A stretch of DNA of 47,557 nt from a virus: the IMG/VR virus record IMGVR_UViG_3300043419_000521, positions 1-47,557 of that record. One strand, 5' to 3'. Under the pieces are notes generated by a model. The model did no database searches and was not told the origin of the DNA. It saw only the letters and a list, made by a program, of their open reading frames with translations. Each line of letters starts with the position of its first letter. Position 1 is the stretch's first letter. This document shows positions 5,511-47,332 of the stretch, piece after piece. The position numbers and the translations under genes were made by a program.

Positions 5511-5585
5511 TGGTGACTCAGGAGAGAATCGAACTCTCATTATCTGGTTCGTAGCCAGAAGTCCTATCCGTTAGACGACCGAGTC
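5511..5585 (-). tRNA. tRNA-Arg (anticodon ACG), CCA encoded
   Basis: Read on the minus strand this forms a full cloverleaf. The acceptor is GACTCGG pairing CTGAGTC with one G-U, the D arm is GTCT/GGAC, and the anticodon stem is TCTGG/CCAGA with loop CTACGAA. The T arm is GAGAG-TTCGATT-CTCTC. The anticodon is ACG, read as inosine-CG to decode CGU/CGC/CGA arginine codons. The discriminator A is followed by an encoded CCA (5513-5511), unlike the second tRNA of this phage. Confidence 0.95.
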
Positions 5586-12117: not shown

Positions 12118-12330
12118 ATGCTACCCAAAGAAACACCCCCACTGCTCAGGCTTGCCGATGCTTCACGCATCTTCAATCTGTCCAAGTCCACCCTGCTCCG
12201 ACTCAGGAACAAGGGCTCCTTCAAGACTTTCAAGACCCTAGGAGGACAGCACATGTTCTTCAGGGACGAAATCCTCAATTACATCGAAAAAAATACCAAT
12301 GAACTTCAAAAGCCCGACTCCCCACGCTGA
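12118..12330 (+). CDS. Small MerR/excisionase-type HTH protein
   Basis: This encodes 70 residues. LLRLADASRIFNLSKSTLLRLRNKG (9-33) is a MerR/Xis-like winged HTH, followed by the wing FKTLGGQHMFFRDEILNYIEKN. It starts one base after the TerL stop and its end overlaps the portal start by 32 nt, so it is embedded in the packaging cassette. Late-gene control or a role in DNA packaging are both possible. With no integrase present, excisionase function is unlikely. Confidence 0.75.
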   Translation: MLPKETPPLLRLADASRIFNLSKSTLLRLRNKGSFKTFKTLGGQHMFFRDEILNYIEKNTNELQKPDSPR

Positions 12331-27962: not shown

Positions 27963-30900
27963 TGGAAAACCCCCTAAATACTCCCCCTCAAGACAACACT
28001 GACGCCCTTGATAGGGCGGCAAATGAATTGTTCAAGGGCGGCGGACTGGAGTTCTCGCACTTAGCAAGGCCCTCGGAGTCCAATGACTCGACTGTGGGTG
28101 ACGAGAGTCAGTTAACCAATGACGACATCTATGACTTCATTCAGGAGAATAGGGACAGGACGTTCGATTTCACTACCGCAGAGGGCAGGGCGTTCTTCAA
28201 CAGATTCGAAGAGGCCAATGCTCGCAGAAACACATTTTCGTTCAATCAGTTCAAGGAAGTAGCGAGCAGGATTGCGTCCGTGCCTTATGACATGGTCGCT
28301 GGAATCATCGGAAATCCCCTTAAAACTCCGGGTTCTCTCGCAGATGGCGTACTCAGAGACGCACAAGACTTGGCCATTCTTCTCGCCCAGTCTGAAGACC
28401 CTTCCTCTCCCCTCTTCAAGTTCAAGTCCTACATCACTGGCACTGGAACCACCGAGGAAAGAATCAAGCAGTTCAACGAAGCGAGATGGTGGAACAACAG
28501 GGCCAACGCTCTGGAAGAGGGCAAGGATACAATCCTAGAACACTGGGTGCCCGATGACTACAGAGAGTACGCCAAAAAACTGATTGACCCCAAACTTGCC
28601 AACGCACTTTCCTACATCGGACTAGACGCACCGCACATCATCAGGGATGCGTTCAGGCGTGGCGGCATCGGTGCCTCCGCCGAAATCATGAAGGGGAGCG
28701 TCCGCAGTGCCAGCGAGTTCACGGCCAAGTCCGCCATCGAGACTCAGGACTGGTTCTCCACTTCCGCCGCTAAGTTCAGGAATCTGTCCCAGAAAATCAC
28801 TGGGGAGGTCCTTTCTACGGCTGGAGATTTGGCTTCGGCTCCTTTCGCCTACATCCAAGAGAAGATTGCCAGAGGCTCCACCGAAATCGAGTCAAGGCTA
28901 GGCCACATTCCCGCAGAAGTCACCAATGGTGCTTCGACCATGATGGCGGACGTCGGTTCCTCCATCACCAAGGGAGGAGTCGAGATGTCTCCAGTCAAGA
29001 GCGTCCTGTTCTCCTTGGGCGTCAAGCCTCTGGCGGAATATGCGAGCGTTCTGGGCAGGGAAATGGCAGACGCTTCCATGGTGGACGCCGCCCAAGGTGT
29101 CGTGAGAATCAAGCCAGAGTTCTCTGGCCTTGGAATGATGGACAGGCTCGCCCTGAACGGGGGAAGAATTGCGATGAGCAAAGAGGCTCAGGCTGTCGCC
29201 AAATTCGCAAATGTCGTCGTCGGATGGCCTGCTTCCATGGCCTTCCCAGTGCTCAAGAGAGCCGTCGGAGACGCCGCCTACATGGGCGTACTCGGGTATG
29301 CCAACGCAAGAGGAGAGGGTGCGTCTTCTGGTTTCGGCATGGGCTTCGCTTGGGGCGGATTCTCTGGCTCCCTGAGACACATCCACAATGTCTACAACCA
29401 AAGCGTAGCACATAGGTACATCATCGACAATTTCGACAATGCACAGTTGCTGGAAATCGAAAAGCACAGCCCCAAGCATGCCGAAAATATCAAGGAGTTC
29501 ATTTCTAGCATCGACGCACACGGGGACAACAGGGTTTCCGCAACCATCCGTGCCGAAATCATGATGGGCTGGGCCGCAGACGCCCAGACCGAACTCAGAT
29601 ACAGAAGCGTTCAGGACTTGGTGGCTGAATACGGAGAAGCCAACGTAAAAAGACAGTTGGGCGACCTTGAGAACGCCAGAATGGCCAGAGGCTCTTCCCT
29701 TGAATTTAACGGAAAGAACGTCATCTGGGTCAACAAGGAGGGAACCACCGCAGAGGCACTTGGCCACGAGTACGGACACAGGTTCTTGGACATCCTGCTA
29801 CAGAGAACCGACGGCTCCGCAGTGGACGCTTTAAAGTCTTTCATGGGCGACGGCGTCGATAAGGGCGTCGTACCCGATGAGGTTCTGGCTACCTTCATCG
29901 CTCATTACAGCATGAAGAGGTACGGCTATGACTCCAACTGGCTGAACAATCCGACCCCTTCTTTCGTCCACGTTGACGGACCGAACGCACTGGATTTCGA
30001 CCCCAATAAGGCAGAAAACTTCGACAAGTCCTTCGGCAACTTGGCCTACGCCAAGGAGCAAATCAGGAAGTTCAGACAGGAGATGGAGTCTGACCCTGCT
30101 GGGATGATGTCTTTCCAGAAGACGGCTAGCGGCAAGATGGCCATGAAGGTCTTTGAGAATTACCCAATCCTCGAAAGGCTTATGCATGAGACGTTCGCAT
30201 ACAGCCATTCGAACAACATGCTCGTCAGGTCGCCTGACATCTTCCTTAGGAATCCGAACATCAAGACCATCAGGTATGTGATGGAGAACTGGCAGATGCT
30301 CAACAACCAGCGTCTGGTCAGCAACCTTGAAGCGGCTGGCTATGTCCTCAAGGAAGTCCAGAAGGAGAGCGGAGAAACTGTCCTTCAGGGCATCTTCTGG
30401 GACGACGGAAAGTTCATCAGCATGCCCCTGCTGGATAAGTGGGGCGAAGACGTGATGAGGAGAGTCCTCAAGAACTCCGATATCAGCGTTACGACCATGT
30501 CTCCTGAGAGGGCCCAAGCCTTCTTGAAGCAGGCCAAAAAGGAAAGATTCCTTAAGGGCGGAAAGGTCATGACCAAGAAGGAGGTCGAGGACACAATCAC
30601 CGCCACCGCCGACTCCATCGCCGCAACCCTAGACTCACTGCCAGACGCAATTAAGCCTAAGTGGTCCCTTGAGAGGGGCGGAACCAAGAAGATTAAACTG
30701 ACCGAACTCACCAAGGAGGCTTGGCAGGCCATCGAGGCTTCCAACGTCTACCACCCAGAGGAGTTCAAGGTTCTGGTTGGCATGGTTGATGTCCTGAAAC
30801 AGATTGAGGCTGGAAAGCCCGTCTTCAACACCTTCACGGCCCAGTACGTCGGCTGGAGCAAGCAGGTCGTCGAGGCCGCTCTCGGCGAAAGGCTAAAAGG

Positions 30901-33900
30901 CCGTCAGGTCCCAGTCACGTTCAGGCACTTTGCACCTTTCGACATCGAACTGACTGTAAGCAAGTTCGACGAAATGGGGAACCCGCTCAAGAATCCACGT
31001 TCCCACATCACGATTCACGCACACGATGTCAGCGTCCTCAACAGGCGTAAGATGAATCAGTGGCAGAAGCCCGAAGTAAGGGCCCTGTTCAGGGACTTCG
31101 GTCACTTCTCGGAAACGTTCATCTCTTGGTTCTCCCAGTTGTCGGAAGACCCCAGCACCAGAAAGCCCTCCGCAGAGTTCCTCAGACCAGAGTTCGGCTC
31201 CAACGCCGAGCGTGTCAGGGACATCATGTACGAGACTTGGGGCGGCAGAAAGCGTAACGACGAGTCCTACATCAACACCCCAGAAGGATATGCTGGCGGC
31301 AGGGACGGACCCGACTACCCAATCCATTCCCTCAGGTTCGACCTGATGGCCAACGTCCTCAAGCAGTCCCAGATTTTCCCAGAAGCATTCCAAGGTCAGG
31401 TGATGGGACTGTACCATAGGCATGGCATCGCCTACGAGCCTATGCGTAGGAACATGATGCTGGGCAACTTCGTCCAGCGTGAATTGGAAAATGGCAGAAG
31501 GTTCTACACCGACGCCAACGGGTACGAAATCAGAGGCGAAGAGCCTAAGTTAAAACTCTTCAACATGTACGGCAACCTAGTGGGCACGTTCTCGAAGATG
31601 GAGAACGCCCAGAAGGCCGCAGAGCGTGACATGTACAAGAAGCCTAAGGAGGAACTGATGCCCAACATGTCGGACATGGGCGACGAAAGGACCCCCAAGG
31701 CTGACAACGAGTACGTACTCAACCCTAACGACGTCCATTCTGGTTCGGCCAATTTCCTAATCGGAAACAATGGCTCCTATGAATTCAAGATTAACGGGGC
31801 CTCTAGGATTGTAAGGTCCTTCAGGCTGGACGCTGAAAAGTACATGGACGACTTCGCCAACGGATTCACTGGCGAAGCACCGAAGATTAAAATCGCCGAC
31901 TTGGTTCCTGACCTTTCTGCGTTCAAGAAGGTACTTCCTAGCGTAGAAAACTACTACATCGAGGCCAGCCCCTATGTCAGTTGGTGGGGCGGCGTGGTTG
32001 CTGGCATTCAGGTCGGCACCAAGCAGAGCATCCTAGGGTACGTAAGTCCTGAAATCCTCAGGTCAGAAGGCGGAATGGAAACTGCTTCGTTCGTTATTTC
32101 CGAAGCACTCCAGCAACTCGTTGACATCGCAGAAGGCAGGGCAACCGCAAGAAGAGTTCCTTGGTCTGCCCCAGATGTCCATATGCGAGACACTGCGGCA
32201 TCGCAGTTCAGGGCCCACATCCTGCTCAGCGACGCTACGGCGGCTTTGGGCAAAACCCCCACCAAGGAAGAGTTCTCGAATTACCTCAGGGAAAGAAGCG
32301 AGGAGTCCGTCGAGAGGGTCTTTAATCGCTGGGTCGGTAAGGCCCCCGTCCGTACCAACTTGATTCCTAGGTGGATTAAGGGCAAGCAGTTCGCCGATGG
32401 GTCCGACAGGATTTCTTACTCGCTCTTAAACGCCTTTGCCCAGAGCAAACTTAACGAATCCGCCAACGCACCTTCGAGCAGTGACCCATCCGTAACTAAG
32501 TTTGTCACCAGCATGAACGACTGGATGTGCGGAATCACCGAGAAGTTCCAAGCGGGAGATGCTTTCGTAATCGACGTTCAGGGTACCAGCGTGGTCGTGT
32601 GCCCTCCTCAGTTCTTCGACCTGCCTGCTGACATGGTGAAGACCGCCGACGCCACCACTGTCGTAGTCAACGGACAGACGACCTATCCTCTCTGGGACTT
32701 CTACAATTCGGTAGTCCAGAGACTGGACCTTACTCACTCGATTTCCAAGTTCGGAAACAGGGAAACCCTCACCAATCAGGGCAATGTATCCAACGACTTC
32801 TTCAAGGCCAACAACCTTGAGGCCTCAAAACTGAATGACAGGCCGTACGAATTCCCCGCTGGTAGCGGGATGTATACCGCCGTACAGCCAGACATCGCAA
32901 GACAGGCTTCTGAACTGTGGAGCGGACTGTTCGGAGAAAACGGGGCTTTAATCGTCACCCTAACACCCTCCGACCTCCCCTCTGACCCGAACAATCCGTC
33001 CCTCAGGATGCCAAGAATGCAGATTGGCACCAACACGCTACACCTGATGAGCGGCATGGGCAGGAATGGCAAGGACATGGGAGTTACCACGCTTCCTCAG
33101 GGCGGCAATATTTCTAATCTAAGGGGCATGATGGGAAGATTCGTGTCTTCTCAGGGCATGGATGCCATCTTCGACATGCACACGGAACTGATGCTGTCTG
33201 GAAACGCACCTTTCCTCGGCTCCTTCAAGGGACGCCTGCACAGGATGTACTCCAAGGGTGAGCACCTCAGTACGCTTGAAATCGCTTCCGCCGCCATCGG
33301 CGTTCCGTTTGACAGGGCCAAGGATGGAACCGCTCTCGGCCTGACTGAATACGTCAAGAACCTAGAAGATTCTGGGGTGAACACTGCAGACAAGGCCTTC
33401 GTCTATAGATGGGCACTGGGCTGTAAGATGGCCGAAATCGGAAGAAGCGTACTGAACGGAGACAACGATAACTTCCACAAGCAGTGGACCAATCAGGATT
33501 ACAGCAACGTTCTCAGGGATAAGGCCACTGGTGCCGTCATCGGGCCTGCCCTGACTGCCGTTGAGTTTGGACAAAGCATGGTCAACAAGGGCTTCTCCCA
33601 GATGGCACACGCACTTGCGTCGTCCAGTGCTGGCCATAGCCGTAGCAAACTCGCCAAGAAAGGTAAGAAGGAAGGATGGGGAGGCCCTAATTCCGTTGTC
33701 GAAAGGGCGTTGGTAGCCCCCAGCAAGACCAATCCATCGTTCGGCAAGGCCATTCTTAAGGCCGCTGACGAAGCCATGGCCAGCATGAGGGCAAATGGCC
33801 ATGACCCTGCGAACATGAACAGAGGTCAGGTCCATGTCTCGCTGAGAAGGTCTAACATGATGCTGGGCGGGATGACCGCCAAGGAAATTGACATGGTCGC

Positions 33901-36900
33901 CTCTGGTGCCCTTCGCTTCGTCAAGACGGACAGCGGAAAGTACTACAAGGCATTCGAGTTCAGCGACAAGGATGCGTCCCTCCTGACCGAAAAGGTCGGA
34001 GGCAAGTTGCACCTTATTCCGTTCTCCAAGGGAGGACAGGCCGACTTCGACGCATACTACAAGGACTTCATGCGTAGTCAGGCACCCATGATGTCCACGG
34101 ACTCGCTCAAACTAGGCGAACTTCTGGACCACAGGATTCTGTACGCACACTACCCGTCCCTCAAGGATGTCAGGGTCGAGTGGGACTATGGATATGGTGC
34201 CTACTACAACCCAGATGCGGATGTCATCACGCTTGGTATCGACAGATTCATCGGCAAGGAGATGCACGAACGTGGCTCTCCCGACCACCTAGACTACGCA
34301 TCCTTCGGCATCGACTTCGAGCGTAACGCCGTCGAGACAATCCTGCACGAAGTCCAGCATGCCATCCAGCGTCGTGAGCAGTGGACCGACTCCGTCTCCG
34401 TCAAGGACAGCAAGTTGTTCCAGAACGCAGGCCTGATTCTGCTCAACAACATCACGGGCGAGGCTGGCAGGACCCTGAGCACCGAAAGAGTGGTCAATGA
34501 CAGCGGTAGGGTCTTCTTCACTGACGACCCCTCCAGTTCCCCCACGCAGTTCCAGAACGCACAGATTATCCAGTCCATCATCAAGATGGCTGGTTCTCCG
34601 ATGCACATGCACCTCAGGCAGTACGCCTACCCCAACCTCATCAGGGTTGCGGAAGAGTCCATGCTCGGGCTTGCGGACGCACACATGCACCACCCCGCTG
34701 GGCACATGTCTAGGGTGAACGCAGAAAGGCTGTCCAAGAGAATCGCAGACATCAGGAACAAGGCCAAGGAGGCCATGGAATCCTTTAAGCGTGGTGAAAT
34801 CAGGGAAGCACATGCCAAGGACATCGTCTGCGAGCATGTCATGGAACTCGAGAATCTCCTTGAGAGCGGAATCGGAATGCTCTCCATCGAGAACTCTCCT
34901 CTGGCTTACAGGCTGTACAACGGCATGAACAACTCGCTGAAGTACATGAGGCGTTCGATGCAGGCCCTCAACGCATTCCAGATTATTAGCAAGATGGCTG
35001 ACTCTGGCCCCCACGGCCTCGACGTCGGCTCGTTTGCCGCCAAGGCCAAGGAAATCTTCAGTACTGTCAGCACGATGCAGTACCTGTCCCAGAAGCATGA
35101 AATCGAGGCCAACCTGACCGAAAGCAGGTCTAGGATGACCCAAGAGGAGTTGAACTCCACTGGCATCAACCCTGACATGACCAGAGTCAATGGTCTGGAC
35201 GCAATCAAGGGGGCCATGGAAATCGGGTACGCTGGCAATAGCATCAAGGCCATCGGACTGGCCCTGAAGAACAAAACCCCCATCCGTGTGGCCAATCTGA
35301 TGATTGCTGGCACTGGGGACTCTAGGCTGAAGCCCGAAGAAAGGTCCAACGAACCCCTTAAACTGATGGCCAGAGGTGCTCTGGTGTCTTGGGTTCTGAG
35401 GACTCTCGACAACGAACTACAGCGACTCAATGCCGTGGCCTTCTACGGGAGAGGTTGGGAAATCGGCAAGGACGGCGTCCCCCGTCTCGCCTTCAGGCAG
35501 GGCGTCATCAGGGTGAAGGGCAACAGGGTACAATCGCTAGACAGGACTAGGAATCTCCTCCACGGAGAGTTTGATAACGCCTCGGTTCAGGGCCACGGCG
35601 AAGGAAGCCTTGGTATCTACAACGCAATAGCCAAGGACGGGCAGACTACTGTGACGCTCGAAGACATCGCCAGAATCATCGACGGCATCGTCGTGTCTGA
35701 AAGCGAGTTAATCACGCCCACCGAGGCCATGGACATCATCACGAGAGACGACTTCCCGTCGGTGGTTAAGGCAAAAGACCTCCCAGAAATCCTCAAGAGC
35801 AGGGGAATCAGCGAAGACGGACTGCTTCTTTCCAACGCCGCCCTGTTCTCCCAAGTGGACCTTACGGACTTCCCCGAGACACTGACCAAGGGGGAACTGG
35901 TTGACCTCATCTCAATCGCACACAGGCAGTTGGTTCACGAAAGAACCGCCACTAGGTCTATGGGCGTCGGGGCCTTGATGAAGGCCAAGTTCGACGTTGA
36001 AAATGCCACTCCGAAGAAATTGATTTCTTCCGTCGATGCAGCATTCAAGGGCAACTCATACTACAGCACCAACGACCCAGTAAGGAATTTCATTGATACT
36101 CTGGTTGGCCGTGAAGCGATGCCAGAACAATTTGGTACGATTTTCCAACACATCAATACGTCCGTAGGAAGTTACGGGAAAAATAGGTTCGGTTTACTAA
36201 ACATTGACTTTGCAACTGGAAGAGCGGTTTTCATTCCGAGAAAGCCCGACTGGGTCGAGGATGCAGTTTGGGCTAAACTGACTGATAAGTGGGCCAATAA
36301 GGGGTATCTGGACGCTGGATACTTTGGTGCCAAACAATCCCTTGCTGACACGGATGCCGAAAGGCTCATGAGAACGGCCATCGAACAGCAGGCCGAATTG
36401 CTCAACAGGAGGATTGCGAGAAAGATGTTCCTGATTAAGCCGTTCTATCAGAAGATTATCGAGAAGTTGTCCTCTGGTACCGAGGGTATGGACCCGTCTC
36501 AGGCCGACCAACTGATGGCCGTCAAGTTCTCGCTATTGGACGAAGCGTCTCTGGCAATGATTGAGCCAGACCTCGCTGGATTCAGGACTCACTCCGTCAA
36601 CGGAGTCGGTACGCAGTCCCACAGGTCATTTGGCAGTTCGATGTCCATGTACGAAAGCCACACCGACCCACGCTCCATGGAGGCGTCCAGAACTCACAAT
36701 CAAATCGGTATCGCACCAGCCATTTATGCGAGCGGATACAGCCCAGAAGTAAGGGATGCTTTCGTCGAATTGCAGACCCTCATGCCCATGGTCGGATTCA
36801 CTTCAGAGTCCACAATCAGGGCTGGGTCAATCTCCAATACGGATTTCAAAATCGGGCAAAGGGAATTCAGTTTCTACGGACTTATTGATGACATCGGAGA

Positions 36901-39900
36901 AAGAAGATTCCACTCCGACATCAACATCCAAGACAACCTGATGTCCGTGACGACATCCGCCTACGCCACGAAGTCGCTTGCGGAAAAGGTCCTGAACGAA
37001 CTGTCCGACCAAGAGGCTGAAGTCGCAGGTCTTGATAAGATGCGGTTCCTTATTAAGATTTCGTCGCAGGCCGCAACTCTGGCCCAGTCCGCCACCCTGC
37101 TAATCGGCGACGCCCAGAACTCCAGCAGGGACTATGTCCACAGAAACGTGCAGAAGATTGGGGATGGAAGTTCTGTCTCCACTGGATTCATCCAAGAACT
37201 AGCATTACTGAGAGGCTATCGTGGTGCCGACGGAGGCCTCGTCCTGCAAGAGAACTTGGTTGCGGACACTTCTTCCGCACTCACGCACAAGCGGAACATG
37301 GAACTTCCTATCTGGAACAACCAACTCTCTCCCTCTGGCGTCGGAAGCAGGTCGTACAACATCCCAGCCGTAAAGGCTTCCGTCCTGAAGGACCTTGCGG
37401 CTAGGTCCATCATCTTCGGTGCAATCAACGACGGAAGCGGGAATGTCACTAGGCCAATGTCTTACATTGGTCCGTTGTCCGACCTTGCGGCCACCATCGT
37501 GCAGACCCAGCAGGGCGGCACATTCAGCGAAAGGGGAGTACTCATCGACTCCGCCCGACCCTACACGAGTGGCATCCATGCACTCCATTCAGCCCTTTAT
37601 CTGACTTCTTGGGAGAAAGGCATCGGAGTGACCCAGCCCCTTACGGCTGATTCGGATTTCTACAAACTCTGGGCACAGCCGTCACAGAGCAACACGTTCA
37701 ACTCACAGCATGACGGCGGACATACCATCGAAAGTTACGCTATCGGCATCGCACCCTTCTTGGCTGTCGCCATGTCCGAAAAGGTGCCTGTTGTAAAGAA
37801 TGGCAAACTCGTAGTCGGAGACATACTCAGCGTCGAGCAGAGAGCCTTGCTCAAAGCCGCCAGAGACGCCTACAGGGGTCACGACTTCTCCGTAAGATTT
37901 ACACCAGAGATGGATGCGGCCAGAAAGGCTTTCTTCGAGACTCTGGATTCCAAGCAGATTTCCGCAATCATCAGCCACCTGACGTCTTCCAATTCCAATT
38001 ATGGAATTCTGACGATGCTTGGCGTGATGAACGCATATCAGCACATCAAGAGACTCCCAGAAGCCCCGAACCTTTCGCAGAAAATCGGCAACGAAGCCCG
38101 TGCTGAGTTGAACAGGCAGTTAGACTTCTACCTGACGGAAGGAAGATACGTCACAGAAATGGGCGTAAATGAAAGGGACTACGTCAATAGCATCTACAAT
38201 AAAGGAGTGTCCCCTTCGTGGATTGGCCAAATGGCATCTGCGGTCTTCAGTGACCCTATCACTCAAAACGCCCTTCTTGCCGCTTGGTCCGTCATGGATT
38301 CTTCCGCTAGGGCCTATGTGCCAGACATGACCGACGGAAATCCGTCCAAGGACAGGCCTCATTCCAGCCTGATGACGTACATGTCTCCCATGGCTTACAG
38401 GTCGCAGTCTCCAACCTTCTCCGCATCCAACACCGCAGTCGGTTCTTACTTCACTGGGCAAATCAACCATCCCGAAAGAACCCACTCCATCATGGCGGGA
38501 GACACCAACATTGTTCAGCAAAGAGAATTGCAGATTCCAGCCGTCGGATTCTCTGGCGAGCAGATGGGCTTGGCCGAGGCTCTGTTCAAGGTTTACGACC
38601 CTGCTTCGAACGACCCTGTCGTGTTCGCCATCGAGGGGGATGAAGCACAGCCTAGCCAAAGCCCAGACAGCCTTCTCGGCGTACATAAGGCAGATGCAGG
38701 ATTCAGGGGCTCGGAAATCAGCCAGACTTTCATCAGAAAGAACGTGGTCAATTCCATCATCGCTCAGGCCAAGAAGATGGGGACCGACAAGGTAAGCATC
38801 GAGCCTGCCAGATTCAGGCTCAGCGGACGAGCCATCACCAGCAAATCCATGAAGTCGCATGAAACCGAAGGCGGCTCTTCTGGAATCAAGTTCAAGGCAC
38901 ACGCACAGGGCGTCTCCGCATTGTTTGCTGGCCTTCCCTTCGTCCCAGACAGGGACAATGGCACGACCCAATACGACACCTTCGCCGAGAACATGCCCTA
39001 CATGACCAATCCGATGGCTGGATTCGCATGGAAGCGTCTCGAAGACGGAAGGCTGGTCATCAACATCACTGGCGACCATGCTGGATACAAGGCTGGCTAC
39101 CTCGGAAGGCAGTATACTCCTCAGGAAGAAAGACGAAAGATTCCAATCGGATTCAGTCTTCAGGAATCCCTAGGCTACGACCCGTATACTGGCGATATCT
39201 CGCCACCCAACATCCACATGGCTTTGTTCGGAAACATGAACACGTCGAGTTACTCCGCAGAGCCTGCTGGCATGAACCAAGCGTTCTCCATCGGAGGAGA
39301 GTCTTGGCGTAAGCAGTTAATCAAGTCTGCTAGGGCTAGAATCGCAAAGGGAGATTCAATCAGGACTAGGTACGAGGGCGTGGACGTAAACAAGTCTGGC
39401 ATACCCTTCAGGTCCTCAGGGCAGAGTGTTGCGTTCGAAAAGATGATGTCTTCTGACGACGCACACAACGACGGCGAGGCTGTCAACTTGGCCTATTCCA
39501 TCCTTGGCCATAGGACTGGGCATCAGTACGCAAGCATCACGCTACCAGCCAACGCCACGCCAGAAGTCATCCGTTCGGTCCTGAACAACGTCTTCATCGG
39601 AGGGTCCATGTCCAACCTGATGAGAATCCTTGCTGGCCAGAGCCAAAGCACAGGCCTGCTGATTCCTCCGCTCGGAGACGGAGCAAGCATCTTCGGAGGC
39701 ATGACCGCAAGTTCTGGTTCTCTCGGGCCCCAGTACCATCGTGGTGGGGGGAATAGCAGTAGGCTTGCGGCCTTGATGAAAGACTCCGCTGGCTCTTCTC
39801 TGCTTGATTCGGCTGACATCGAAGAAATCCTCAGGAAAAACCCAGAGGCCACTTCCGAGTACAGCCAAATCTTGGACGTCGAAGAACATAAAAACGCATT

Positions 39901-42900
39901 TTCTAGAAGAGCCGCCCTCGTGCTTGGAAGAAATCCGAGATTGCTCGGAGACATCGAGAAGGTCGCAGAACTTGCCATCCAATCCGACCACGGCTTCTCC
40001 ATCCCTGACGCCGAAAGACACATCACGAAGAACGGGGACACCACGCTCGCCATCGAACTTATGTTCCCTAATAGGAAGGACTTGCTGAAGTTCGCATGGG
40101 ACGGCAAGGAAGAGAACGGCGTCTCCATCGTCCACAGAGGACCCAAAGCCAAGCCTACTGGCTACTTCGTCACCTACGACTTCCAGACTGGCATCGACCA
40201 GTACGGGAACCCAATCACCACCAAGAAGGTGGTTCCAGTCAAGACCCTAGCCGAAGCCGAATCCATCAGAGCACAATTCGGCGTCAAGGCCAGCAAGGCT
40301 ATCATGGCTCAGGCTTTAGTGGCCGCAGGCATGGACGCTCCGCAGATTAAGCAGGGAGTCACGAACCCAGACTCGAACGTGGACTTCAGCGTACAGTCTG
40401 GAAGGTTCCTTAGGGAGAACGAATCTGGCCTAGCCATGGTGAACAGCAAGTCGTACTACGTCGGAGATTTCGACAAGTCCATGACTTCCACCGAGGCGAA
40501 TGCCGTGAGTCAGGCACTCAGCACTGGCTCCGTATTGCAGACCCAATTACCCCCCGTTCAGGTCAGGTCCGCCAACCTCATGATTGGTAGCAGGGACGCA
40601 AGAGAACTGGAGGGACTTCTCAGAAGAAAACTCACGTTCGGCAACGGGAGCGGTCCAGTAGAGTTCTCTTCCAAGTTGATGAAGGTCGTGGCCTACGGAA
40701 AGCGTAAGTCTGGAAGGGACCTTTACCCTGACAGCATGACTGGTGCGGAATGGTACAAGTTCATCAGGGAAAACGCCGTCTCCAAGGACGAGATGCGTAT
40801 GACTGGCATCGTGTACCTCCTGCACGACAACATGAACACGCCCCTCACCAGACAGGACCTAGCCGAGTTCATCTACACTGTCTATCCTAGGACCAGCAGG
40901 CAAATCAGACGTTCCAACAACAACCCAATCCTGTCCGAAAACAGGAATATCAAGGCTGGCTCGCTGAGCGGATTCTACAACCTGCCCTTCATTGATGACG
41001 TTCAAGCAAAGGAAGATTTCGTGGTCAACACCCACTTGGATAATCTCCAGAAGGTAGCCAAACTTATTGAAGACAAACTTAATGTGGAGGAAACCCATGC
41101 CGACGCACAGGCCCTTTCCGCCGCACTTCAAAAGTCCCTTGAGTTCACGATTGCAGAAATGGGCATGCCCCCAGACCTAATCACTGGAAGCCTGATGGAC
41201 AGCATCGAGGCCATGAGGAATCTGTACAAGAACACTACGGAAACCTCTGCGACCAAGGAAGGATTCTTCGGGGAGACTAGAGGCGTAAGACCTGCCCAGT
41301 TGGAATACGTCATGAGGGACGCAATCTGGGGAAGGCTCGCCGACCAGTACAAGACTATCGAAACATTTTTGGGTGAACTTGGCTTCATCAATCCTTATGA
41401 GATTGAGTACTCCAATCAGACCAGAGAAACGAACCCGCTGAATCCTACTTCTGGCGAAGACACCCCGTCTTCCCTCAATACTGGAGTCGGAGTGTTCAAG
41501 AGCGTGTCTTCCGCAACGCCTTATCCGTCGGCCAGCCAGCAGAACCTTTACTTCCATGGAGGAAACTACCATGCTTCCTATGCGACCTTTACTGGATTCT
41601 ACCAGTCCAGCCCTCAGTTCGTAGAAGTGACCAACGTCAGACTCCTCGAAGAGTCTAGAAGGGCGAAGGAAACGCTAAAGGACAGGATGAACCACTCCGA
41701 TTCTCCAGAGCAAAAGAAGAAGATTCAGAGCATCATCGACACCATCGAGCGAGTAGAGGCCGTGAGAAAACTTGTCGGAGGAAACGTGGCAGACTTCAGT
41801 CACTACGACAACAATGACCCCGGAACCTTCCAGTTGGGCCACGTAAGAAGCACCGAGACTGTGCTTTCTGGTGAGTACGGAATCGCAAACCATACCGAGC
41901 CTGCCTTCCACGGAGAAGACGCTGTCAGCGGATTTAAGTACGCCCCAGAGGCCGTAATCGGAATCGAAGAAATCCAGTCTGACTCTTTCCAGTACCATAC
42001 CTTCGGCGACCCGAACGTCGCAGAAAAATCGCTACCAGATACGTTCGAGCAAATCGAAGGACTCAAGAAGTCTGGAGACTTGGCCAAACTAGTCGAGGCC
42101 AAGAAGAGGCTGGAAGCATCGGTCAAGGACGCCCAGACGCTCATCAACCAGAACCTCAGGTATCAGATGATGAACGCCCGTGGGGACAATAGGATGAACA
42201 CCATGTTCCTGATGAAGAACCTGTCCATCCTGTCTCCAATCGAACTCTACATGCTGAAGGACAGCCTGATGCTGAAGGAGACTGGAAGGACCATGCAGGT
42301 TCCAGAACATTACAGGCCCTACATCGGCAAGGAGACAATCCCAGTCTACGCACACCCAGACCTTCAGGATTACAGGACTGGACGCATCCATGAAAACGAA
42401 GAGGCTGGAAGAATGGCGGTTCAGGTAGGCAGAAGGCTCGCCGTACAAATCAACAATCTGGCCCATGGGGACCTCATGGCGGCACTAATTCCAAAGTCGT
42501 TCATGGGATACGTTTTTGAAAACGACTCTTTCAGTTATCGTGAGGACGCATCGAACAGGCCCCAGCCTACCCCTAGTTTCGTCTTCATGGTCTATGCGGC
42601 CCAAGACCCAGAGGTAATCAGCAAGTCCCTCCACATCACCGAATCCAACAACGCCATGGTCGGTGCCACCGACGTTGACTGGGACGCAGTTGCGGCAAGA
42701 ACCATCGACAGAATCGAGTCTATGAGGGAATCCGTCCTTTCGGGCGACGCCTTGGAGCAGCAACACCTTCGTGACTATGCTGGTCCGAAGGCCAGCAGGC
42801 TGGCCAAGGCTAAGTTCTTCGACAACCTCATCGCAACCTATCGTGAGCGTCTTGAGTCTCCTAGGAATCAGATGCTCATGCCAGAAGTACAGCCAGACGG

Positions 42901-44911
42901 AGCACCCGTCGAAGGCAACTTCGGAAAAGGATACGAAGATAGTCCTCTGGCATCTTCGGTCACCCAGAACCCAAACAGGTACGTCCTGATAGAGTCAGGC
43001 CAAGACCATGACAGGATGAACCCCTCACAACTTCTGTTCCCATCTGCTGGCATGATTTCCAATCCGATGAACGCACATCAGTTGGACTTCAGGAACGCAC
43101 AAAGGGCTCCCGCTCCAGACGAAGATATGGCATCCTATGCTGTGCAGTACGTTGCGGCCAACACCGCACTCGGTCAGTTCGCCGCCAGTTCGATTTCTGG
43201 GCTAATCTCGCATGTTTCGAGAATGGGCGTCGTTCCTGCCCAGATTAAGGACTTGCAGGTTAGAATCGACGAACTCTCGCCTCAGGTGCCGATTAAGCCG
43301 AGCAACAACGCCCCCAGACTGACCAATACGCTTCCGTACGGAGTCGAGGACATCTACAAGCCCGTGGCTGTCACTGGCACAATCCTTCGTGCGGCCAACG
43401 CTGGCTTTGGTGCCATCACCTATTCCGACGCAAGAATGCAGGTGATGAGAGGACACTCGTTGGACATCGTACCGACCATGCTTATCGGCAGGCAGGCGAA
43501 CATGCTTACCATGTCGTCGGACAACACGTTCGCACATGTCATGGCCCAGATTTTCGTGCTCCCAGAATCCGTAAGGAGTCAGTTGCACGGAGGCCTTTTC
43601 AAGAGATTGACCGAAGTGGACAACGCCTTCTTCGTGTCCGTGTTCAGAAACGGCAACGCATTCGAGCATAACGGCGTCAGCGGAGACATCAGGTTGCACG
43701 TCACCAAGGCGGCAATTGAAGCCGCCCCGCTGATTATGGCTGACGGAATCATGCCTGCCGACATGGGTGACGTTTCCTCTTACTGGAGGGCGGTGTCTGG
43801 AGGCGAAGCCCACATCGAGGGTGCGATGGATTACATCGGAAGACCTGCCGACCCGTATGTAGGTCAGGGAGAAAGTAGCATGCTCGATGCTGACGGGAAG
43901 CCCTATAAGGCCAAGGACTTGGCCACCGACTTCTTCAAGCAGTACTACGGAAAGGTCAGCGATGGGGAGAAGAGCGACAGGCAGAGAGTAATCGACTCCG
44001 CCGTGGCCAACGCTGGCTCCTCCATGTTCTATTGGTCCGAGGCTGGAAGAGCCATGGGATATGTGTCCCAGTATGGTGCACCTTCTTGGTTCATCCAGTC
44101 CATCATGTACGGGCAGAAGCAGGCGTCCATCGACGGGTTCTCCACCGACGCATTCCAAAGACCCTTGGTCACAGTCGCCGCAGACGGGACCTACACGCTC
44201 GTTGACCCCAAGACTGGCCGTGCAATCATGGAAAAGATTAACAACCCGACCATGCTCAGGGAGGCGTTCTTCCAGAATTCCAAGTACATGGGCAGACTGC
44301 CCTACATCTCCAAGTTCCTGAGCGAGTGGTCCCCTGTCGGTGCCTATGTCACCCAAGGCCATACCCACGGCAAGACGACTGGAGAAAGCATGGTTTCGGC
44401 ACTTAGCGACGACTACAACCCCTCCGAATACAACAGGAAGGGCAACGTCCTCCCAGCGGCATTCGGAGGTGTCGTATCGAACCTAGGCAGGGAAGAGCCC
44501 AAGTCAGGCAGTTCGTTCCGAAGCCAAAACTCCAAGCCCATGGCACCCTTCGGCCCAGTGTTCAACGTGGTCGGACCGAAGGTATGGATGAAGCATGTCA
44601 ACAAGGTCAACATTTCTGACCCCGAGGCGTTGTCCCGTGCCATGTCCACCTACTTCTCGTGCGGCGGTCCTGTCCTCAGGTTCAAGCCCCGAATGCCCAC
44701 GGAGGCCCACAAGAAGGCCTTTAGGAAGAAGATTGTCGATGGCATCGCCATGCTCATGCCCTCTGGCGGTGGCAAGGGCCGTGCCGAACCCAACACCCAG
44801 ACCCTTGAGATGCTCTCCAGAATGTACAGGAACTTCAGCAAGGTCACGATGGGCCGCAAGATTCCGACCAAGGGCGAAGCCCTCGAAGACGAAGATGACT
44901 CCGCCAGATAA
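27962..44911 (+). CDS. Giant 5,649-residue protein with zincin and polyvalent-type domains
   Basis: This single open frame of 16,950 bases makes up about 36% of the genome. The N-terminal 460 residues are helical and Gly/Ala-rich, with hydrophobic patches (VVGWPASMAF; GFGMGFAWGGFSG). HEYGH at 602-606 sits in a zincin-like helix. A second module at about 2065-2140 (LGELLDHRILYAHYPSLKDV ... YYNPDADVITLG ... TILHEVQHAIQ, H2129/E2130/H2133) matches a zincin domain recurrent in giant phage proteins. Near 4620-4677, LGHVRST ... GIEEIQSDSFQ is another recurrent polyvalent-protein module. LFNMYGNLVGTF (about 1198-1209) resembles short 'yD.dGklvGtF' repeats of such proteins. Only about five cysteines were seen. 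No P-loop, polymerase or helicase motif was found. Position suggests a packaged, ejected protein; enzymatic activity is unproven. Confidence 0.9.
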   Translation: MENPLNTPPQDNTDALDRAANELFKGGGLEFSHLARPSESNDSTVGDESQLTNDDIYDFIQENRDRTFDFTTAEGRAFFNRFEEANARRNTFSFNQFKEVASRIASVPYDMVAGIIGNPLKTPGSLADGVLRDAQDLAILLAQSEDPSSPLFKFKSYITGTGTTEERIKQFNEARWWNNRANALEEGKDTILEHWVPDDYREYAKKLIDPKLANALSYIGLDAPHIIRDAFRRGGIGASAEIMKGSVRSASEFTAKSAIETQDWFSTSAAKFRNLSQKITGEVLSTAGDLASAPFAYIQEKIARGSTEIESRLGHIPAEVTNGASTMMADVGSSITKGGVEMSPVKSVLFSLGVKPLAEYASVLGREMADASMVDAAQGVVRIKPEFSGLGMMDRLALNGGRIAMSKEAQAVAKFANVVVGWPASMAFPVLKRAVGDAAYMGVLGYANARGEGASSGFGMGFAWGGFSGSLRHIHNVYNQSVAHRYIIDNFDNAQLLEIEKHSPKHAENIKEFISSIDAHGDNRVSATIRAEIMMGWAADAQTELRYRSVQDLVAEYGEANVKRQLGDLENARMARGSSLEFNGKNVIWVNKEGTTAEALGHEYGHRFLDILLQRTDGSAVDALKSFMGDGVDKGVVPDEVLATFIAHYSMKRYGYDSNWLNNPTPSFVHVDGPNALDFDPNKAENFDKSFGNLAYAKEQIRKFRQEMESDPAGMMSFQKTASGKMAMKVFENYPILERLMHETFAYSHSNNMLVRSPDIFLRNPNIKTIRYVMENWQMLNNQRLVSNLEAAGYVLKEVQKESGETVLQGIFWDDGKFISMPLLDKWGEDVMRRVLKNSDISVTTMSPERAQAFLKQAKKERFLKGGKVMTKKEVEDTITATADSIAATLDSLPDAIKPKWSLERGGTKKIKLTELTKEAWQAIEASNVYHPEEFKVLVGMVDVLKQIEAGKPVFNTFTAQYVGWSKQVVEAALGERLKGRQVPVTFRHFAPFDIELTVSKFDEMGNPLKNPRSHITIHAHDVSVLNRRKMNQWQKPEVRALFRDFGHFSETFISWFSQLSEDPSTRKPSAEFLRPEFGSNAERVRDIMYETWGGRKRNDESYINTPEGYAGGRDGPDYPIHSLRFDLMANVLKQSQIFPEAFQGQVMGLYHRHGIAYEPMRRNMMLGNFVQRELENGRRFYTDANGYEIRGEEPKLKLFNMYGNLVGTFSKMENAQKAAERDMYKKPKEELMPNMSDMGDERTPKADNEYVLNPNDVHSGSANFLIGNNGSYEFKINGASRIVRSFRLDAEKYMDDFANGFTGEAPKIKIADLVPDLSAFKKVLPSVENYYIEASPYVSWWGGVVAGIQVGTKQSILGYVSPEILRSEGGMETASFVISEALQQLVDIAEGRATARRVPWSAPDVHMRDTAASQFRAHILLSDATAALGKTPTKEEFSNYLRERSEESVERVFNRWVGKAPVRTNLIPRWIKGKQFADGSDRISYSLLNAFAQSKLNESANAPSSSDPSVTKFVTSMNDWMCGITEKFQAGDAFVIDVQGTSVVVCPPQFFDLPADMVKTADATTVVVNGQTTYPLWDFYNSVVQRLDLTHSISKFGNRETLTNQGNVSNDFFKANNLEASKLNDRPYEFPAGSGMYTAVQPDIARQASELWSGLFGENGALIVTLTPSDLPSDPNNPSLRMPRMQIGTNTLHLMSGMGRNGKDMGVTTLPQGGNISNLRGMMGRFVSSQGMDAIFDMHTELMLSGNAPFLGSFKGRLHRMYSKGEHLSTLEIASAAIGVPFDRAKDGTALGLTEYVKNLEDSGVNTADKAFVYRWALGCKMAEIGRSVLNGDNDNFHKQWTNQDYSNVLRDKATGAVIGPALTAVEFGQSMVNKGFSQMAHALASSSAGHSRSKLAKKGKKEGWGGPNSVVERALVAPSKTNPSFGKAILKAADEAMASMRANGHDPANMNRGQVHVSLRRSNMMLGGMTAKEIDMVASGALRFVKTDSGKYYKAFEFSDKDASLLTEKVGGKLHLIPFSKGGQADFDAYYKDFMRSQAPMMSTDSLKLGELLDHRILYAHYPSLKDVRVEWDYGYGAYYNPDADVITLGIDRFIGKEMHERGSPDHLDYASFGIDFERNAVETILHEVQHAIQRREQWTDSVSVKDSKLFQNAGLILLNNITGEAGRTLSTERVVNDSGRVFFTDDPSSSPTQFQNAQIIQSIIKMAGSPMHMHLRQYAYPNLIRVAEESMLGLADAHMHHPAGHMSRVNAERLSKRIADIRNKAKEAMESFKRGEIREAHAKDIVCEHVMELENLLESGIGMLSIENSPLAYRLYNGMNNSLKYMRRSMQALNAFQIISKMADSGPHGLDVGSFAAKAKEIFSTVSTMQYLSQKHEIEANLTESRSRMTQEELNSTGINPDMTRVNGLDAIKGAMEIGYAGNSIKAIGLALKNKTPIRVANLMIAGTGDSRLKPEERSNEPLKLMARGALVSWVLRTLDNELQRLNAVAFYGRGWEIGKDGVPRLAFRQGVIRVKGNRVQSLDRTRNLLHGEFDNASVQGHGEGSLGIYNAIAKDGQTTVTLEDIARIIDGIVVSESELITPTEAMDIITRDDFPSVVKAKDLPEILKSRGISEDGLLLSNAALFSQVDLTDFPETLTKGELVDLISIAHRQLVHERTATRSMGVGALMKAKFDVENATPKKLISSVDAAFKGNSYYSTNDPVRNFIDTLVGREAMPEQFGTIFQHINTSVGSYGKNRFGLLNIDFATGRAVFIPRKPDWVEDAVWAKLTDKWANKGYLDAGYFGAKQSLADTDAERLMRTAIEQQAELLNRRIARKMFLIKPFYQKIIEKLSSGTEGMDPSQADQLMAVKFSLLDEASLAMIEPDLAGFRTHSVNGVGTQSHRSFGSSMSMYESHTDPRSMEASRTHNQIGIAPAIYASGYSPEVRDAFVELQTLMPMVGFTSESTIRAGSISNTDFKIGQREFSFYGLIDDIGERRFHSDINIQDNLMSVTTSAYATKSLAEKVLNELSDQEAEVAGLDKMRFLIKISSQAATLAQSATLLIGDAQNSSRDYVHRNVQKIGDGSSVSTGFIQELALLRGYRGADGGLVLQENLVADTSSALTHKRNMELPIWNNQLSPSGVGSRSYNIPAVKASVLKDLAARSIIFGAINDGSGNVTRPMSYIGPLSDLAATIVQTQQGGTFSERGVLIDSARPYTSGIHALHSALYLTSWEKGIGVTQPLTADSDFYKLWAQPSQSNTFNSQHDGGHTIESYAIGIAPFLAVAMSEKVPVVKNGKLVVGDILSVEQRALLKAARDAYRGHDFSVRFTPEMDAARKAFFETLDSKQISAIISHLTSSNSNYGILTMLGVMNAYQHIKRLPEAPNLSQKIGNEARAELNRQLDFYLTEGRYVTEMGVNERDYVNSIYNKGVSPSWIGQMASAVFSDPITQNALLAAWSVMDSSARAYVPDMTDGNPSKDRPHSSLMTYMSPMAYRSQSPTFSASNTAVGSYFTGQINHPERTHSIMAGDTNIVQQRELQIPAVGFSGEQMGLAEALFKVYDPASNDPVVFAIEGDEAQPSQSPDSLLGVHKADAGFRGSEISQTFIRKNVVNSIIAQAKKMGTDKVSIEPARFRLSGRAITSKSMKSHETEGGSSGIKFKAHAQGVSALFAGLPFVPDRDNGTTQYDTFAENMPYMTNPMAGFAWKRLEDGRLVINITGDHAGYKAGYLGRQYTPQEERRKIPIGFSLQESLGYDPYTGDISPPNIHMALFGNMNTSSYSAEPAGMNQAFSIGGESWRKQLIKSARARIAKGDSIRTRYEGVDVNKSGIPFRSSGQSVAFEKMMSSDDAHNDGEAVNLAYSILGHRTGHQYASITLPANATPEVIRSVLNNVFIGGSMSNLMRILAGQSQSTGLLIPPLGDGASIFGGMTASSGSLGPQYHRGGGNSSRLAALMKDSAGSSLLDSADIEEILRKNPEATSEYSQILDVEEHKNAFSRRAALVLGRNPRLLGDIEKVAELAIQSDHGFSIPDAERHITKNGDTTLAIELMFPNRKDLLKFAWDGKEENGVSIVHRGPKAKPTGYFVTYDFQTGIDQYGNPITTKKVVPVKTLAEAESIRAQFGVKASKAIMAQALVAAGMDAPQIKQGVTNPDSNVDFSVQSGRFLRENESGLAMVNSKSYYVGDFDKSMTSTEANAVSQALSTGSVLQTQLPPVQVRSANLMIGSRDARELEGLLRRKLTFGNGSGPVEFSSKLMKVVAYGKRKSGRDLYPDSMTGAEWYKFIRENAVSKDEMRMTGIVYLLHDNMNTPLTRQDLAEFIYTVYPRTSRQIRRSNNNPILSENRNIKAGSLSGFYNLPFIDDVQAKEDFVVNTHLDNLQKVAKLIEDKLNVEETHADAQALSAALQKSLEFTIAEMGMPPDLITGSLMDSIEAMRNLYKNTTETSATKEGFFGETRGVRPAQLEYVMRDAIWGRLADQYKTIETFLGELGFINPYEIEYSNQTRETNPLNPTSGEDTPSSLNTGVGVFKSVSSATPYPSASQQNLYFHGGNYHASYATFTGFYQSSPQFVEVTNVRLLEESRRAKETLKDRMNHSDSPEQKKKIQSIIDTIERVEAVRKLVGGNVADFSHYDNNDPGTFQLGHVRSTETVLSGEYGIANHTEPAFHGEDAVSGFKYAPEAVIGIEEIQSDSFQYHTFGDPNVAEKSLPDTFEQIEGLKKSGDLAKLVEAKKRLEASVKDAQTLINQNLRYQMMNARGDNRMNTMFLMKNLSILSPIELYMLKDSLMLKETGRTMQVPEHYRPYIGKETIPVYAHPDLQDYRTGRIHENEEAGRMAVQVGRRLAVQINNLAHGDLMAALIPKSFMGYVFENDSFSYREDASNRPQPTPSFVFMVYAAQDPEVISKSLHITESNNAMVGATDVDWDAVAARTIDRIESMRESVLSGDALEQQHLRDYAGPKASRLAKAKFFDNLIATYRERLESPRNQMLMPEVQPDGAPVEGNFGKGYEDSPLASSVTQNPNRYVLIESGQDHDRMNPSQLLFPSAGMISNPMNAHQLDFRNAQRAPAPDEDMASYAVQYVAANTALGQFAASSISGLISHVSRMGVVPAQIKDLQVRIDELSPQVPIKPSNNAPRLTNTLPYGVEDIYKPVAVTGTILRAANAGFGAITYSDARMQVMRGHSLDIVPTMLIGRQANMLTMSSDNTFAHVMAQIFVLPESVRSQLHGGLFKRLTEVDNAFFVSVFRNGNAFEHNGVSGDIRLHVTKAAIEAAPLIMADGIMPADMGDVSSYWRAVSGGEAHIEGAMDYIGRPADPYVGQGESSMLDADGKPYKAKDLATDFFKQYYGKVSDGEKSDRQRVIDSAVANAGSSMFYWSEAGRAMGYVSQYGAPSWFIQSIMYGQKQASIDGFSTDAFQRPLVTVAADGTYTLVDPKTGRAIMEKINNPTMLREAFFQNSKYMGRLPYISKFLSEWSPVGAYVTQGHTHGKTTGESMVSALSDDYNPSEYNRKGNVLPAAFGGVVSNLGREEPKSGSSFRSQNSKPMAPFGPVFNVVGPKVWMKHVNKVNISDPEALSRAMSTYFSCGGPVLRFKPRMPTEAHKKAFRKKIVDGIAMLMPSGGGKGRAEPNTQTLEMLSRMYRNFSKVTMGRKIPTKGEALEDEDDSAR

Positions 44912-45224: not shown

Positions 45225-45303
45225 CTACCTATGGGCCAATCACACTATCAGATGGTTCGCCATCGGGTTTGTTGCTGGGCTGGTTTTGTCTGCCTTGCTC
45301 TGA
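45199..45303 (+). CDS. Single-pass membrane micropeptide overlapping lysis genes
   Basis: This encodes 34 residues, MEKIKEIANYLWANHTIRW then FAIGFVAGLVLSALL. It has an amphipathic or charged N-terminus and one C-terminal membrane segment. It overlaps the holin 3' end and, in a different frame, the 5' end of the spanin-like lipoprotein gene. Out-of-frame nesting of a small membrane peptide next to a holin is common in lysis cassettes. It may be a holin regulator, but the function is not shown. Confidence 0.6.
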   Translation: MEKIKEIANYLWANHTIRWFAIGFVAGLVLSALL

Positions 45304-45986
45304 TTGGTTGCTCCACCAAGCCCTTGCCCCCCGTGGTCAAGGTCGTGGACAACCCAGAGAAGGACAAGTACATCACCCGCATCGAGAACGAGGCATCGGA
45401 GGCGTCTGCGGCCCTTAAAGTGGCCAAGGATGGCACCTCCATGCCTCACGCCAAGTTAGTCGAACTCACCATCACCAGACTGGACGGAATCAAGCCATCC
45501 ACCCAGAAGCAGGTGGACGCCTTCAAGTCAGCCCTGACCAGTTCCAAGGAACTCAAGAAAGCCGAGGACAAGGCCAACAAGGTGGAGGAAGAAACCAACG
45601 AACTGTGGACCATGGTGGATATGGTGCAGTTGGAGAACCTGTCGCTCAAGGAGGAGAACGAAGCCATCCGCAAGGACAAGGCGTTCTCTGAACTCAGAGC
45701 CCAGTGCTTCACCCTCGGCTCATGGTTCGCCATCGCCAGCGTCCTGCTGTTGATTGGCTCCAGCGTACTTGGCCTGAGCAAGAAGAACGGGCTCACCTTG
45801 CTGGCTACGTCGGCGTTCTTCTTTGCATGCCCTTTCATCATTCAGGACGTGGTTGAGTCCCTTTGGTTCAAGATTGGCGTCGGCGTACTCATCGGAATCG
45901 GTGCCTTGCTTTTCCTCGTGGAAGCGTACCAGCATCACAAAGCGGTCAGCGGACGCTTGACCCGTGATGAAGGTAAGCCATCCTGA
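45231..45986 (+). CDS. Spanin-like lipoprotein with C-terminal membrane segments
   Basis: This encodes 251 residues (244 if started at 45252). A signal peptide MVRHRVCCWAGFVCLALIGC ends in a lipobox LIGC, with lipidated Cys27 from the first ATG. The periplasmic part has a coiled coil (KKAEDKANKVEEETNELW ... LENLSLKEENEAIRKD). Near the C-terminus are three hydrophobic segments (WFAIASVLLLIGSSVLGL, LLATSAFFFACPFII, IGVGVLIGIGALLFLV). A lipid anchor plus C-terminal membrane anchor is the plan of unimolecular spanins, which fuse the envelope membranes. Three segments instead of one is unusual. Confidence 0.65.
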   Translation: MGQSHYQMVRHRVCCWAGFVCLALIGCSTKPLPPVVKVVDNPEKDKYITRIENEASEASAALKVAKDGTSMPHAKLVELTITRLDGIKPSTQKQVDAFKSALTSSKELKKAEDKANKVEEETNELWTMVDMVQLENLSLKEENEAIRKDKAFSELRAQCFTLGSWFAIASVLLLIGSSVLGLSKKNGLTLLATSAFFFACPFIIQDVVESLWFKIGVGVLIGIGALLFLVEAYQHHKAVSGRLTRDEGKPS

Positions 45987-46494: not shown

Positions 46495-46513
46495 GTGTGT
46501 GTGGGTGGAAAAT

Positions 46514-46585
46514 TGCTCCCTCTAGGAATCGAACCTAGATTCACTGCTTAGAAGGCAGTTGTTCTATCCGTTGAACTAAGGGAGC
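46514..46585 (-). tRNA. tRNA-Arg (anticodon UCU)
   Basis: The minus-strand cloverleaf has acceptor GCTCCCT/AGGGAGC, a D arm GTTC/GAAC, anticodon stem ACTGC/GCAGT with loop CTTCTAA, and T arm CTAGG-TTCGATT-CCTAG. The anticodon TCT reads AGA and, by wobble, AGG. CCA is not encoded, in contrast to tRNA-Arg(ACG). It lies between the ERF and ribbon-helix-helix genes in the leftward transcript. AGA/AGG dominate arginine coding in the sampled part of the giant late gene, which gives this tRNA an obvious purpose (inference). Confidence 0.95.
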
Positions 46586-46591
46586 AAAGGA

Positions 46592-47332
46592 TTAGAACGG
46601 AACGTCGTCGCTGGTGGGCTCGCTGGCCTGACCCTTGGCGTTCTGGATGGCGTCCAGAGCGGCACGGAGTGCGATGTCCTGAGGGCTGGGAGGCTGGTCC
46701 TTGTAACCCTTGGGCTGGAACTCCTTGATGTACCACTCCAGCGAATTGCTGGGCAGTTCGAAGAGGGCCTTGCCCTTATTCTTGCCGAAGTGGAGGACAG
46801 TCCTCATGGCGTCTCCGACAGTCTCGGGGTCCTTGGCGACGGCCTGAGGCTTGGCAACGGCTTTAGGGGCAGAAGCGGCTACAGGGTTGGGAATGTACTT
46901 GGGAGCGGGAGCCTTGGAGGCTCTGTCCGCTTCTGCGTCATCATCAGCCGTAGCCAGATTTGCAACGGAGGCGATGGCGTACCTTCTCAAATAAGAGAAA
47001 AGCGAACCAGCATCCTGACCCTTGAACTTGTCCTTATCGACGGGCAGTTCGCAGGTGTAACCCATCTGGCCGCCGCTCTTGTGGACGATGCAGGTACGGA
47101 TGCCTACGGATTCAGCCGAGCCGATGGGGAACTGGATGATGGCCAGACCATGCTTGGCGAAGATTGCCTTGGTGGCCGCAATATGGGCACTCAAGGTTGC
47201 GTAGGACGAGTGGTGAAACGGGTTCTCCGCATCGGGGCTCACGTCCCTAGTTTCACTGCATGCGGCCACTAGTGCGGCGGCGAGTTCGGGCCTGATGTCG
47301 TACACGTAGGTAGGATTAGTTGGATTGCTCAT
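46592..47332 (-). CDS. erf: ERF single-strand annealing protein with extra C-terminal module
   Basis: This encodes 246 residues. Residues 1-135 match the ERF superfamily: NPFHHSSYATLSAHI (37-51), FAKHGLAIIQFP (58-69) and SLFSYLRRYAIASVANLATADDDAEAD (110-136). After a Pro/Ala/Lys linker, residues 176-230 (RTVLHFGKNKGKALFELPSNSLEWYIKEF) resemble the small module found at the C-terminus of exonuclease X and in related proteins. The protein ends TSDDVPF, like the acidic tip of SSB (DDIPF). It would anneal ssDNA made by the RecE-like nuclease. Confidence 0.88.
   Translation of the reverse strand: MSNPTNPTYVYDIRPELAAALVAACSETRDVSPDAENPFHHSSYATLSAHIAATKAIFAKHGLAIIQFPIGSAESVGIRTCIVHKSGGQMGYTCELPVDKDKFKGQDAGSLFSYLRRYAIASVANLATADDDAEADRASKAPAPKYIPNPVAASAPKAVAKPQAVAKDPETVGDAMRTVLHFGKNKGKALFELPSNSLEWYIKEFQPKGYKDQPPSPQDIALRAALDAIQNAKGQASEPTSDDVPF

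Follow-up and report, generated by a model that had tools for sequence, protein, structure and literature searches.

It has been proposed that the tRNAs carried by phages correspond to the codons that are heavily used in the phage genes (Bailly-Bechet et al. 2007, as cited in PMC10264068), and this codon-compensation model is the most established model of phage tRNAs, although it was not supported in mycobacteriophages (PMC10264068). In Shigella phage Sf14, which carries 26 tRNAs, the phage's own tRNA pool suits the late genes better than the early ones (PMC12482277). The locus described here is a tRNA-Arg(UCU) gene of a freshwater-type phage, and comparison with its relatives shows, by association, that the codons of these phages and the tRNA at this position have co-evolved.

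The phage genome, its two tRNA genes and its relatives

The window, by which we mean the whole stretch of DNA that was analysed (47,557 nucleotides, IMG/VR record IMGVR_UViG_3300043419_000521), is a complete circular phage map of ~47.4 kb, and its terminal 127 bases are identical at both ends. It encodes an SU10-type major capsid protein (MCP; 15910..17262, + strand; Pfam PF17236, E 1e-36), a terminase large subunit (10488..12116, + strand; PHROG 2, Pfam PF03237) and a portal protein (12299..14545, + strand; recognized by tblastn to the annotated portal of MW202524), the latter two of which served as tree markers. The lambda-like early block consists of genes for an ERF-family ssDNA-annealing protein (46592..47332, - strand; PHROG 2324, E 6.6e-26; Pfam PF04404), an exonuclease VIII-like protein, a replication initiator and a DnaC-like helicase loader (1209..1889, - strand; PHROG 50, E 8.8e-26), the last being used as an early/replication-gene marker. 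A single giant gene (27962..44911, + strand) encodes 5649 aa, for which no Pfam match was found; its first 2000 aa also gave no PHROG match and no match in a protein search. The giant protein is nearly cysteine-free, with 5 cysteines in 5,649 residues and 0-10 in 20 relatives. No near-identical genome was found among the known phages searched, the nearest named phage being C75C1, which has a terminase of 32% identity and no tRNA, and a literature search on the phage family found no papers.

The tRNA-Arg(UCU) that the earlier note had placed at 46514-46585 was confirmed by ARAGORN (46513..46586, - strand) and by Rfam RF00005 (46514-46585, - strand; 70.7 bits, full-length model 1-71); it is a complete cloverleaf with a UCU anticodon and no encoded CCA. 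The other tRNA is a tRNA-Arg(ACG) at 5511..5585 (- strand; ARAGORN, Rfam 58.3 bits), with an encoded CCA. Both programs agree on these two genes, and because the identical 127-base ends make the map complete, the count of exactly two tRNAs given earlier is real. The UCU tRNA lies directly 3' of the ERF gene, on the same strand, and is convergent with a gene for a predicted lipoprotein/membrane protein (45231..45986, + strand), which had no family match in PHROG or Pfam and is syntenic in most of the relatives examined but was undetected in G018. We refer to this place, directly 3' of the ERF gene and facing the lipoprotein-like gene, as slot B, and to that of the ACG tRNA, between the early block and a gene at 7425-8033, as slot A.

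A query with the MCP returned 77 contigs in IMG/VR, many of about 48 kb, and further family members came from tRNA-pattern and DnaC-like searches; 20 near-complete and about 39 further contigs were analysed. Slot B holds a tRNA-Arg(CCU) in most relatives and a tRNA-Arg(UCU) in the clade of the window, in G033 and G049, in G076 and in outgroup phages of 43-45 kb, and its synteny is common to the CCU phages, the UCU phages and the outgroup. G041, the sister of G076, also has a UCU tRNA, the ERF slot not being found on its contig. When filled, slot B always held a reader of AGR codons (AGA or AGG) in the phages examined. No tRNA-like sequence scoring above shuffles was found in slot B of G011, G016 and G040, and no tRNA in that of G077, whose convergent neighbour was not clearly detected and whose giant gene was read for 2,037 aa only. 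In G011 (L115, L135, L155; longest ORF 3,635 aa) and G056 (L221, L222; 3,293 + 2,371 aa), the giant gene is divided or reduced in length, either naturally or by assembly error.

In a 55-row tree, the CCU tRNA is present in all three main ingroup clades, and the copies compared share 92-100% identity. The UCU tRNA of the window's clade has about 74% identity to the CCU tRNA of the sister phages and 93-96% to the UCU tRNA of G055, a sister-group contig and the closest match found; these identities make a replacement by exchange within the wider group more probable than a point mutation in the anticodon. A tRNA with the same anticodon arm and 78% overall identity occurs in G050 (L210-L212), a phage contig of 43.6 kb that is unrelated and carries about a dozen tRNAs. 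Among bacteria, a search with the phage terminase gave no match, and a 30-base pattern of the UCU tRNA was found in only eight contigs (L250-L257), six of which are titled as Patescibacteria-type lineages. These matches are apparently chromosomal tRNA-Arg(UCU) genes, and as their whole-tRNA identity of 77-85% is too weak for the purpose, Patescibacteria were not inferred to be the host.

Arginine codons and the anticodon at slot B

The 321 arginine codons of the giant gene comprise 157 AGG, 105 AGA, 41 CGT, 8 CGC, 8 CGA and 2 CGG. AGR therefore accounts for 262 of 321 arginines (82%), compared with 267 of 466 (57%) in the remaining genes (Fisher p = 4e-13) and about 43% expected from codon-position composition, and it is distributed evenly, dominating every full 1.5-kb slice. 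The excess over both composition and the other genes indicates an enrichment beyond chance, of the kind that codon compensation expects for cognate codons, and one that extends well beyond the sample at 29,761-30,300 on which the earlier note had relied. That sample is indeed rich in AGR, but it had been miscounted: all nine in-frame arginines are AGR (7 AGG, 2 AGA), and the CGT that had been counted with them is out of frame.

The proposed match between the UCU tRNA and AGR-rich late genes was borne out by the relatives, in which the AGG:AGA ratio of the giant gene tracks the slot-B anticodon. AGG/(AGA+AGG) was 0.75-0.96 with CCU, 0.16-0.60 with UCU in the ingroup and 0.68-0.73 with an empty slot. 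AGG thus exceeds AGA about 3-22 to 1 in CCU relatives, whereas AGA roughly equals or outnumbers AGG in the three ingroup UCU lineages and in the UCU outgroup, where codons were counted in the eight longest ORFs instead of one homologous giant gene, a looser comparison. The control ratios AAG/AAA (Lys), GAG/GAA (Glu) and CAG/CAA (Gln) do not shift with the slot. When their mean was included in a PGLS analysis as the covariate for background A/G-ending bias (coefficient 0.5), the UCU effect was -2.2 logits, with p of 1e-10 at the maximum-likelihood lambda of 0.96, 5e-6 under full Brownian motion (lambda 1) and 3e-5 for the ingroup alone (lambda 1). All four independent CCU/UCU phylogenetic pairs differ in the expected direction, which by a sign test alone gives p = 0.125. 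At conserved arginines, comparison of a CCU sister (G007) with the window showed 35 changes from AGG to AGA and 2 from AGA to AGG, whereas the lysine control at conserved sites shifted slightly in the opposite direction. Furthermore, the AGR share was 0.44 and 0.51 in the empty-slot genomes G011 and G016, compared with 0.79 in their CCU sisters G014 and G015. Codon use therefore changes when the tRNA changes, as seen across the three slot states, in the PGLS analysis and in the independent pairs; all of this support is correlational, and the independent contrasts number only four.

Early and late genes were compared by means of marker genes, with dnaC and erf as the early markers, because greedy picking of the longest ORFs can take antisense ORFs. 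Median AGR shares were 0.11 for the MCP, 0.27 for the early markers, 0.41 for the remaining late genes and 0.66 for the giant gene, which exceeded the other late genes in 21 of 21 genomes and the MCP likewise in 21 of 21. Under codon compensation, the cognate codons would be rare in the host or poorly read there, for which the avoidance of AGR by the MCP and the early genes may be an indirect hint. The MCP is likely to be the most abundant phage product, yet it avoids AGG: it has little AGG and mainly CGN in CCU relatives, and in the window's clade it combines CGN with AGA (CGT 6, CGC 12, AGA 9 and AGG 0 in the window). The MCP has zero AGA in all CCU and confirmed empty-slot genomes. In the window's clade, AGA encodes 9-10 of its 27 arginines, and in the outgroup 5-7 of roughly 14-18, again with no AGG. 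This shift is absent from the second UCU lineage (G033 1, G049 0). The earlier suggestion that arginine supply limits translation of the late genes is not supported by these observations, since the effect is confined to the codons that each anticodon reads, and since AGG is avoided in the MCP, presumably the late protein made in the largest amount; arginine supply is thus the wrong quantity.

Variable tRNAs at slot A

The occupant of slot A varies strongly between clades and can be a tRNA for Arg(ACG), Pro, Met/Ile2, Ala, His, Val, Lys, Phe or Tyr. Therefore, the pair of arginine tRNAs pointed out earlier is not a general design but is peculiar to the window's clade. The idea that the ACG tRNA is matched to CGT and CGC also failed, as no enrichment of CGN was found in the giant gene with Arg(ACG): CGT makes up 7-17% of arginines in genomes with both ACG and UCU tRNAs and 4-21% in those without ACG.

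For other tRNAs of the family a codon association was observed. Seven near-complete genomes, G017, G018, G019, G023, G037, G046 and G048 (L118-L120, L122, L126, L129, L130 and their continuations), carry a tRNA with a CAU anticodon, whose probable Ile2 identity is suggested by its sequence and by the codons. With this tRNA, AUA reaches 43% (38-49%) of isoleucine codons in the giant gene and 32% in the other late markers, but stays at 1% in early markers and the MCP; without it, the shares are 4% in the giant gene, 3% in late genes, 3% in early genes and 0% in the MCP. The pattern is confined to one clade, a sister clade, and hence represents one event, and G042 of the same clade, which has high AUA and no Ile2-type tRNA on an incomplete contig, was left out. 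Similarly, a Pro(UGG) tRNA goes with CCA at 42-58%, compared with a median of 14%, with the exception of G049 (14%).

A proposed explanation, its alternatives and known systems

We consider it probable (about 0.78) that the UCU tRNA functions in decoding for the phage, from a conserved slot, and has co-evolved with the codons of the late genes. The comparison of sequences supports a role in which the slot-B tRNA would serve the late genes, and most of all the giant gene, by codon-specific decoding. The replication operon to which the ERF gene belongs ends with slot B, and the UCU tRNA is presumably co-transcribed with this operon; once matured, presumably by host enzymes, it would raise the capacity for reading AGA (and AGG) during late-gene translation, above all that of the 17-kb giant gene. 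In this family slot B usually carries a CCU tRNA, and the late genes that go with it use AGG. A UCU tRNA like that of G055 would have taken over the slot in the clade of the window. AGA would then have become about five times as frequent in the giant gene, and in the MCP, where it had stood at 0, it would have come to about 9 of 27 arginines. The tRNA probably came first and the codons later, because AGA is used without any AGG in the MCP, whereas many AGG codons remain in the giant gene, which may be more weakly selected and still catching up.

A more speculative and rather doubtful extension is a sense-codon lock, in which the non-capsid late genes, the giant one above all, would be paced by the tRNAs of the phage's early operon. 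Translation of these genes would wait until phage tRNA has accumulated, and there would be no competition with the capsid gene, which would use codons read by the host. The contrast in AUA shares in the clade with the Ile2-type tRNA, with 1% in early markers and the MCP against 32-43% in the giant gene and the remaining late genes, is what such a lock would predict.

Alternatively, the UCU lineages may have moved to hosts with a different pool of arginine tRNAs, so that codons and tRNA responded separately. The clades may differ in host, since their slot-A tRNAs also vary. However, a host shift is unlikely to be the explanation, because among A/G-ending codons only those of the swapped tRNA change, the Lys, Glu and Gln ratios staying as they are, and because the AGR share falls in empty-slot genomes. 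Less likely still is that the tRNA replaces host tRNAs cut by anticodon nucleases, with codon use being secondary. Such evasion has a precedent proposed for mycobacteriophages (eLife 2023, PMC10264068), and the constant presence of an AGR reader in the filled slots would be consistent with one targeted tRNA species. Evasion alone, however, does not predict that the AGG/AGA ratio tracks the anticodon, that AGR is enriched in late genes and the giant gene with early markers and the MCP spared, or that the AUA share tracks the Ile2-type tRNA. It is very improbable that the richness in AGR simply follows from base composition or mutation bias. GC content in the family spans 39% to 60%, and part of the AGG/AGA ratio is indeed accounted for by the background A/G-ending bias, but composition predicts 43% AGR where 82% was found, the anticodon effect survives the background covariate, and the MCP of the same genomes contains far less AGR.

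Fragments of tRNA genes are frequent at phage attachment sites. That the UCU tRNA is an integration relic of this kind or a functionless passenger can nevertheless hardly be maintained for a full-length tRNA with a strong Rfam score, in a slot conserved across MCP identities of about 45% to 100% and with codon usage that follows its occupant. A role as a prophage attachment site was set aside, as there was no integrase, next to the tRNA or elsewhere, among the gene families found in the ORFs searched, which did not cover every small ORF.

The preferred reading, a decoding tRNA that has evolved together with late-gene codons, makes this family a natural experiment, in which one slot has three states (CCU, UCU and empty) with several independent switches, and the read-out is a giant gene with more than 300 arginines. 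It provides unusually clear evidence for the joint evolution of phage tRNAs and phage codons, and the near-exemption of the MCP suggests that phages may split decoding between host and phage tRNAs. As in the codon-compensation model, in the form in which it is cited above, phage-borne tRNAs match codons that the phage uses heavily; the evidence here comes from an anticodon that was exchanged repeatedly at a single syntenic slot and from the codon-specific response in relatives, instead of from a correlation within a single genome, and it concerns the phage side of a model that also involves host codon use. Late genes that favour the phage's own tRNAs are shared with Sf14, which is one genome with 26 tRNAs, whereas here there are two tRNAs, a giant carrier gene and an MCP nearly exempt from AGG. 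A small set of tRNAs kept by selection is also a feature of the phage tRNAs proposed to evade anticodon nucleases (PMC10264068), but in contrast to the mycobacteriophages of that work, which showed no codon compensation, codon use here closely tracks the anticodon. Finally, in gut phages that recode stop codons with suppressor tRNAs (PMC10879173, PMC9523058), a phage tRNA likewise reads a codon of the phage genes. Here the codons are the ordinary sense codons AGG, AGA and AUA and the code is unchanged, and a sense-codon lock, if true, would be the ordinary-code counterpart of stop-codon recoding.
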